47,351 nt of DNA. Source: Candidatus Kaiserbacteria bacterium (GTDB taxonomy: Bacteria; Patescibacteriota; Minisyncoccia; Phycocordibacterales; UBA2100). The notes beneath the pieces were generated by a model that did not search any database, was not told the DNA's origin, and worked only from the letters and a program-made list of their open reading frames with translations. Of this stretch, positions 47,109-47,351 are shown in pieces. A program made the position numbers and the translations under genes. The first letter of the stretch is position 1; the number at the start of each line of letters is the position of its first letter. The stretch spans positions 80,558 through 127,908 of the forward strand of contig JAQBRI010000006.1 of assembly GCA_028286585.1 (NCBI GenBank), written 5' to 3'.

Positions 47109-47181
47109 GCGCGCTTAGCTCAGTTGGTAGAGCAATTCATTTACACTGAAAAGGTCGGGGGTTCAAGTCCCTCAGCGCGCA
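47109..47181 (+). tRNA. tRNA-Val(TAC)
   Basis: GCGCGCT/AGCGCGC acceptor, TTTACAC anticodon loop, GGTTCAAGTCC T arm. Confidence 0.93.
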
Positions 47182-47351
47182 CAAATTGGAGAGAAGCGTA
47201 AATTTGGGCACGCTAGCAAAGCGCCTGCGCGCTTTGCGTGAGGACTTGAAAAGCGGAGCGATGTTTTGCGAACACGCAAAACCGCGAGCTAGGGCCGTGC
47301 GGCAAAATGTGTGGCGACACATTTTGAACGCCTGGCCAAGTCCCTCAGCGC
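47164..47351 (+). repeat. 15-bp direct repeat of the tRNA-Val 3' end enclosing three perfect stem-loops
   Basis: CAAGTCCCTCAGCGC at 47164-47178 and 47337-47351; hairpins at 47216-47237, 47264-47281, 47303-47326. Confidence 0.7.

Follow-up and report, generated by a model that had tools for sequence, protein, structure and literature searches.

The window analyzed here is a stretch of 47,351 nucleotides from Candidatus Kaiserbacteria bacterium (GenBank assembly GCA_028286585.1, contig JAQBRI010000006.1, positions 80,558 to 127,908; G000:C5:80558-127908 in our numbering). Its end is occupied by a tRNA-Val gene and by a short hairpin-rich element behind it, which is the subject of this study (Table 1). 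The 3' part of the tRNA gene, CAAGTCCCTCAGCGC, recurs exactly after 173 bp, at the last bases of the window; we estimate the chance expectation of a 15-nt exact repeat inside ~190 bp at about 1e-5. An earlier note, made from the sequence alone, had described this repeat and three perfect stem-loops between its copies, and both descriptions proved exact. The 169-nt region folds at -71.3 kcal/mol, compared to -56.7 +/- 3.9 kcal/mol in shuffled sequences (z = -3.75). The note had missed a fourth feature: the segment GAGGACTTGAA is the reverse complement, minus one base, of the T-loop and T-stem of the same tRNA (TTCAAGTCCCTC). We call this segment the guide.

The end of the window coincides with the end of its contig (C5). 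The first 127 bases of contig C7 are identical to the last 127 bases of C5, as is typical of the k-mer overlap of a k=127 assembly graph, and the two contigs can therefore be read as one. C7 reads on as ...CTCAGCGC/ACCCCGAGGGTACTT (a slash marks a junction here and below), with the repeat ending after exactly 15 nt. The sequence after the second CAAGTCCCTCAGCGC copy, ACCCCGAGGG, is not tRNA, and the tRNA end is not repeated again. A tandem tRNA-derived repeat running on past the window, one of the readings first proposed, is thus refuted at tRNA-Val, and a complete second tRNA is excluded by the same unrelated continuation. An assembly artifact at the contig edge was also excluded, because equivalent anatomy occurs inside contigs and in related genomes. 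Elsewhere in the source genome, tRNA-Ser lies with equal score near the ends of contigs C15 and C18 (L050 and L051), which may be a further assembly overlap of 127 bp.

A DNA search of the source genome with the element gave partial matches beside other tRNAs. In the 3' flanks of its 40 tRNA genes, we found equivalent anatomy behind seven: Val, Leu-CAA, Leu-TAG, Lys-TTT, Cys, Arg-TCT, and, in degenerate form, Lys-CTT. The elements are ~170 to 190 bp long and contain no open reading frame. Their parts follow one order: the gene 3' end, one or more small hairpins, a match to the acceptor-strand complement, hairpin 1, the guide (complementary to the T-loop and T-stem of that very tRNA), a core of AAGCGGAGCGATG-hairpin 2-ACCGCGAGCT, hairpin 3 on a short helix, and then the gene-end repeat from the T-loop onward. 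In the intact source-genome copies, the inverted match fits the cognate tRNA better than any other tRNA of the genome (sole exception, Val), and the direct match is likewise best with the cognate tRNA (sole exception, Leu-CAA). Across the family, the element sits after the C of NNC/R in the tRNA T-loop (class 1), at the tRNA 3' terminus (class 2), in tmRNA, or in one topA codon. Every element restores the 3' end of the interrupted gene, and the native end stays on the far side as a direct repeat. An equivalent of hairpin 1 was present in 69 of 73 elements, and the segment complementary to the acceptor strand is perfectly complementary in a tmRNA copy (L087).

Table 1. Features of the element and its host gene at the tRNA-Val locus (positions in the window)
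Feature	Position	Strand	Basis
tRNA-Val(TAC), host gene	47109..47182	+	ARAGORN; Rfam tRNA, 70.4 bits
Insertion point TTC/AAG in the tRNA-Val T-loop	between 47164 and 47165		
Left end of the element: replacement gene 3' end, T-loop through acceptor	47164..47182	+	repeat, 47164-47178 = 47337-47351
Segment with partial complementarity to the acceptor 3' strand (GGGCACGCTA)	47206..47215	+	sequence, predicted fold
Hairpin 1, GCAAAGCGC-CTGC-GCGCTTTGC	47216..47237	+	sequence
Guide, complementary to own T-loop/T-stem 3' strand over the insertion point (TTC/AAGTCC)	47240..47250	+	
Core: AGC-GCT helix (P3), GGAGC..GCGA motif, hairpin 2 (47264-47281)	47252..47290	+	covariation
Right end of the element: terminal helix P4 (GGCCG-TGGCC) with hairpin 3 (47303-47326)	47293..47337	+	18 covarying pairs, 91% paired
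Displaced native 3' end of tRNA-Val (direct repeat), extending on C7 as ACCCCGAGG	47337..47351	+	

To map the family, we used a covariance model built from six source-genome copies, whose E values are rough and whose detection is incomplete near threshold. It matched 51 of 60 relatives, with up to 19 copies per genome, and 38 of 380 genomes drawn evenly across the phylum (E <= 1e-4); the genomes were mostly metagenome bins. The copies are related, so the counts overstate independence. Named records with copies include Kaiserbacteria, Nomurabacteria, Adlerbacteria, Taylorbacteria, and Moraniibacteriota. Most copies (83 of 107) have a tRNA of the same strand no more than 250 bp upstream. The remaining 24, among them copies at tmRNA, an intron-bearing tRNA-Thr, contig ends, and topA and copies with no recognizable upstream gene, never have a tRNA facing them within 250 bp. 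One tRNA-Thr(TGT) (L126, genome G027) is predicted with a ~205-nt intron and has an element behind it, and five complete elements (L062, L068, L073, L106, and L119) with serine-tRNA-type or similar guides and repeats have no recognizable tRNA directly upstream. The exact source-genome core had no match in contigs of other species. With a looser core pattern, 44 loci were recovered, and every one of them lies in a record whose title names a Patescibacteria-type lineage or a bacterium metagenome-assembled genome. The phages, plasmids, and viral contigs searched contained no match, and we rejected a phage or plasmid origin. Among the Rfam 15 covariance models, only tRNA and tmRNA scored above the gathering score, leaving the element without a known RNA family, and no description of such elements was found in open-access papers (subscription papers and preprints lay outside the search). 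Judged against these papers, Rfam, and named collections, this is apparently an undescribed, large family of gene-free Patescibacteria elements.

Next, we focused on the pairing between guide and target in 73 tRNA-adjacent copies. In 53 of them (class 1), the segment before the core pairs at 9 or more of 12 positions with TTC/RANNCCNNN. Fifty of these guides pair at 11 or 12 of the 12 positions with their own T-arm, 46 of the 53 cognate pairings fall within the best 5% when compared with 51 distinct T-arms, and mismatches cluster at the two outermost positions. In the other 20 copies (class 2), the guide spans the tRNA 3' terminus (e.g., GGC/ACAAAAG), with a mean perfect run of 7.35 nt compared to 4.75 nt for noncognate targets. 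The guide, placed directly 5' of P3 and hairpin 2, is 9 to 12 nt long and pairs with 3 nt to the left and 6 to 9 nt to the right of the insertion point. Its partner is the first 9 to 12 nt of the replacement gene 3' end. Over nine positions, the guide had fewer mismatches than the direct repeat (0.60 versus 1.28; P = 0.0026), and complementarity therefore appears to be kept after insertion.

The topA gene offers a comparison of occupied and empty sites. The insertion point (GAC/AAAAACG or CAC/AAAAACG) is empty in many genomes of the genus, where the next gene often lies 33 to 73 bp away, compared to 254 bp in the occupied L156; in many genomes, topA is followed by the same HD-type gene, which we take to be RelA/SpoT-like. 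Five genomes have a complete insertion with a coding-intact, in-frame displaced end, L161 has a complete insertion with a truncated displaced end, and L144, L145, L154, L170, and L171 have decayed insertions. With copies behind many tRNAs and this site empty, occupied, or decayed among related genomes, the earlier proposal of an att-like duplication around a miniature structured element was essentially right. All seven intact topA elements have guides that pair 9/9 with their own gene despite synonymous codon differences between species. Left copy and guide vary together, and five of the seven guides match the left copy more closely than they match the downstream one. We therefore assign the guide to the gene end on the left, the one the element carries. 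In the two youngest-looking cases (L143 and L156), the two gene ends are identical for 32 to 33 nt and then diverge, which would fit an element that arrived with another strain's gene end and joined beside the native one. At L170 (topA of G072), a different ~125-bp insertion with a second gene-end copy sits at the same point after the first stop codon, upstream of a truncated family copy, which suggests that other mini-elements use the topA site.

The structure itself is well conserved. In 110 distinct copies, all 29 model pairs had two-sided changes, and covariation was about three times that of shuffled controls (0.611 versus 0.188); sliding the pairing abolished the signal. Helix 5 (P4 with hairpin 3) was strongest, and hairpin 2 was poorly captured by the model (52 to 60% paired). 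Given this covariation and the retained guide complementarity, "decayed integrated element," an alternative first put forward for the Val copy, does not suit the family. Among non-Watson-Crick pairs, G.T (64) far exceeded A.C (10), which points to the gene-sense strand as the folding strand. Hairpins resembling terminators separate tRNA from guide in 14 of the 20 class 2 copies and in 18 of the 53 class 1 copies, with a shuffled expectation near 0. These terminators, together with a guide pairing that would unfold the tRNA in a joint transcript, favor action as DNA.

We consider it probable, with considerable room for doubt, that the family consists of nonautonomous, site-specific mobile elements of Patescibacteria that lack open reading frames, act as a folded single strand, and choose their targets by base pairing. 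The gene-sense strand would fold as single-stranded DNA, and the guide 5' of hairpin 2 would select the left target and putative cleavage site. The GGTC and GACC base of hairpin 3 would mark the right end, and a recombinase supplied in trans would cut and join at C/R, following an IS200/IS605-like logic with longer target pairing. The carried gene end would make insertion harmless to essential genes. On a bolder and more tentative view, which we regard as possible but would not lean on, this is natural programmable DNA insertion: a gene-free element of ~170 to 190 bp pairs 9 to 12 nt across the insertion point, brings the gene end along, is moved by an unrecognized enzyme, and has its guide rewritten when the target changes.

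Several observations weigh against mobile single-stranded DNA. The excess of G.T over A.C is compatible with RNA as well as with single-stranded DNA, and most class 1 elements have no terminator before the guide. Mobility is read from sequence comparison, the topA comparisons are all between species, and the gap to the next gene is large at some empty topA sites as well. A direct repeat is present although IS200/IS605 insertions make none, which is explained only by assuming an element-carried gene end; moreover, related copies are not independent data. The mobilizing enzyme is a further difficulty. Element number did not correlate with counts of Y1, integrase, IS110, or reverse transcriptase genes. 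PF01797 and the RAYT profile were absent from G004, G020, G040, G045, and G047, and complete or near-complete genomes with up to 12 copies lack Y1 or RAYT. The DEDD recombinase of IS110/IS1111 exceeded the cutoff in 3 of 60 genomes, the source genome not among them. Serine recombinases are common in these genomes and were not found in G020 (12 copies). Flanks up to ~8 kb contained neither a larger autonomous version with cargo nor a longer island with a 15-nt repeat. Since no tested enzyme class tracks the elements, the mobilizer is supplied from outside, a conserved host recombinase, or an unrecognized enzyme.

A conserved recombinase is the premise of an explanation we find unlikely, in which the element is a tiny Campbell-type attachment element moved by the chromosomally encoded Xer or a different tyrosine recombinase; the arms of the T-stem would be its core sites, and the hairpins an accessory structure. 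T-loop crossover and gene 3'-end replacement are typical of tyrosine integrases, and 57 of the 60 genomes encode a PF00589 protein. However, G007 and G053 carry elements without a PF00589 match, class 2 and topA sites have no T-stem symmetry, and a guide that follows the target sequence is left unexplained.

It strikes us as decidedly improbable that the element is an intron- or ribozyme-like RNA that sits in the T-loop and duplicates the 3' exon at its own 5' end, an arrangement in which the transcript would yield a working tRNA or TopA with or without splicing. In favor of this reading, when tRNA and element are folded jointly, the minimum-energy structure joins the 5' half of the tRNA to the downstream repeat, and the element is looped out from the T-loop; the fold is on the gene-sense strand, and in five genomes the downstream topA copy is intact and in frame. 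We first favored this reading of topA because both copies were coding intact; it weakened when downstream copies proved truncated or lost in L144, L145, L154, and L161, although topA is an essential-type gene. An intron also has no need to bring the gene end along as far as the stop codon or the 3' end of the tRNA, a terminator often stands between tRNA and guide, splicing would serve nothing at the tRNA terminus (class 2), and no Rfam intron or ribozyme matched. A host regulatory or RNA-processing element spread by gene conversion, with the guide as an antisense segment for tRNA 3' maturation or mRNA stability, is very improbable: wide structural conservation and a guide complementarity that outlasts the direct repeat would suit it, but presence at a given gene varies among relatives, copies decay, some genomes have no confident copies, guide pairing would harm tRNA folding, and the direct repeats go unexplained.

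We also noted other arrangements near tRNA genes. Two or three elements are close together or in tandem at L079, L089, L137, L138, L091, and L123, in several cases behind one gene, with the later copy apparently targeting the previous repeat; tandem copies are present at L079, L089, L137, and L138. A second hairpin-rich repeat family beside tRNA genes (TACTTCTATTTT..., GAAGTGCAGTCATGTACTCATGAGCTGCCGC), unrelated in sequence, lies on C7 just past the window (L009:123-260) and in the 3' flanks of the source-genome Ile-GAT, Ile-TAT, Ser-CGA, Ser-ACT, Tyr, and Val-GAC genes. Behind the source-genome tRNA-Thr-TGT (L028), the tRNA end recurs in inverted orientation (CACCTCCCAGAC) ~20 nt past the tRNA. 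The GC-rich stretch after it lacks the core, and the whole may be an element of another type.

Patescibacteria make up a large share of bacterial diversity and have tiny genomes with few well-described mobile elements. The widespread element described here occupies essential RNA genes without breaking them and appears to pick its sites by base pairing. Its readable record of guide, target, and displaced end amounts to a natural experiment in site-specific DNA insertion. In these genomes, elements turn over in the tRNA 3' flanks, with consequences for annotation and contig breaks.

The element shares traits with several known systems. Integron attC sites offer a resemblance only, in the imperfect hairpin of P4 and hairpin 3 with its unpaired spacer and extra base; the element lacks gene cassettes and the RYYYAAC and GTTRRRY core (its T-loop is GTTCRAN), and its junctions are TTC/RA, GAC/AA, or GC/ACA. 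In IS110 bridge RNAs and seekRNAs, a noncoding guide recognizes the target on both sides of the junction. Our guide likewise pairs on both sides of it, but no donor-binding loop was identified, and the matching recombinase is scarce, as described above. Tyrosine-integrase elements at tRNA genes share the T-loop insertion, the restored gene 3' end, and the direct repeat. Unlike these, the element has no cargo and no integrase gene (~170 to 190 bp leaves no room for one), contains an internal guide, and also targets tmRNA, the tRNA terminus, and topA. With REP/RAYT systems it has in common short noncoding hairpins possibly moved in trans and a tetranucleotide before the hairpin (GGAG). REPs are 20- to 40-bp repeats (PMC3733652), and CT or CA cleavage sites are reported for REP/TnpA-REP (PMC8266576); our elements are ~170 to 190 bp at fixed gene sites, are not 20- to 40-bp palindromes with a GTAG or CGTC tag, and occur in genomes without RAYT (G004, G020, G045, and others).

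The arrangement also parallels that of IS200/IS605. In IS608, guides 5' of each hairpin pair with the cleavage sites, and the paired target has the insertion on its 3' side (PMC5934647). The element similarly has subterminal hairpins on one strand, a guide directly 5' of a hairpin base, insertion exactly 3' of a paired target kept on the left flank, a junction that follows NNC, and a second hairpin with its base (GACC/) reaching up to the right junction. Guide pairing of the IS200/IS605 kind is supported by the pairing statistics, with cleavage there putative, but the element carries no tnpA or tnpB, and Y1 is absent from several carrier genomes. Two further differences are the 9- to 12-nt pairing, which extends over the insertion point and into the left end of the element itself, and the carried gene 3' end that gives the direct repeat; this repeat looks like an element-carried gene end and is 3 to 5 nt in class 2. 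Engineered IS608 with 12- to 17-nt pairing becomes site specific (PMC5934647), and the family appears to have naturally the long pairing by which engineering gave IS608 that specificity.
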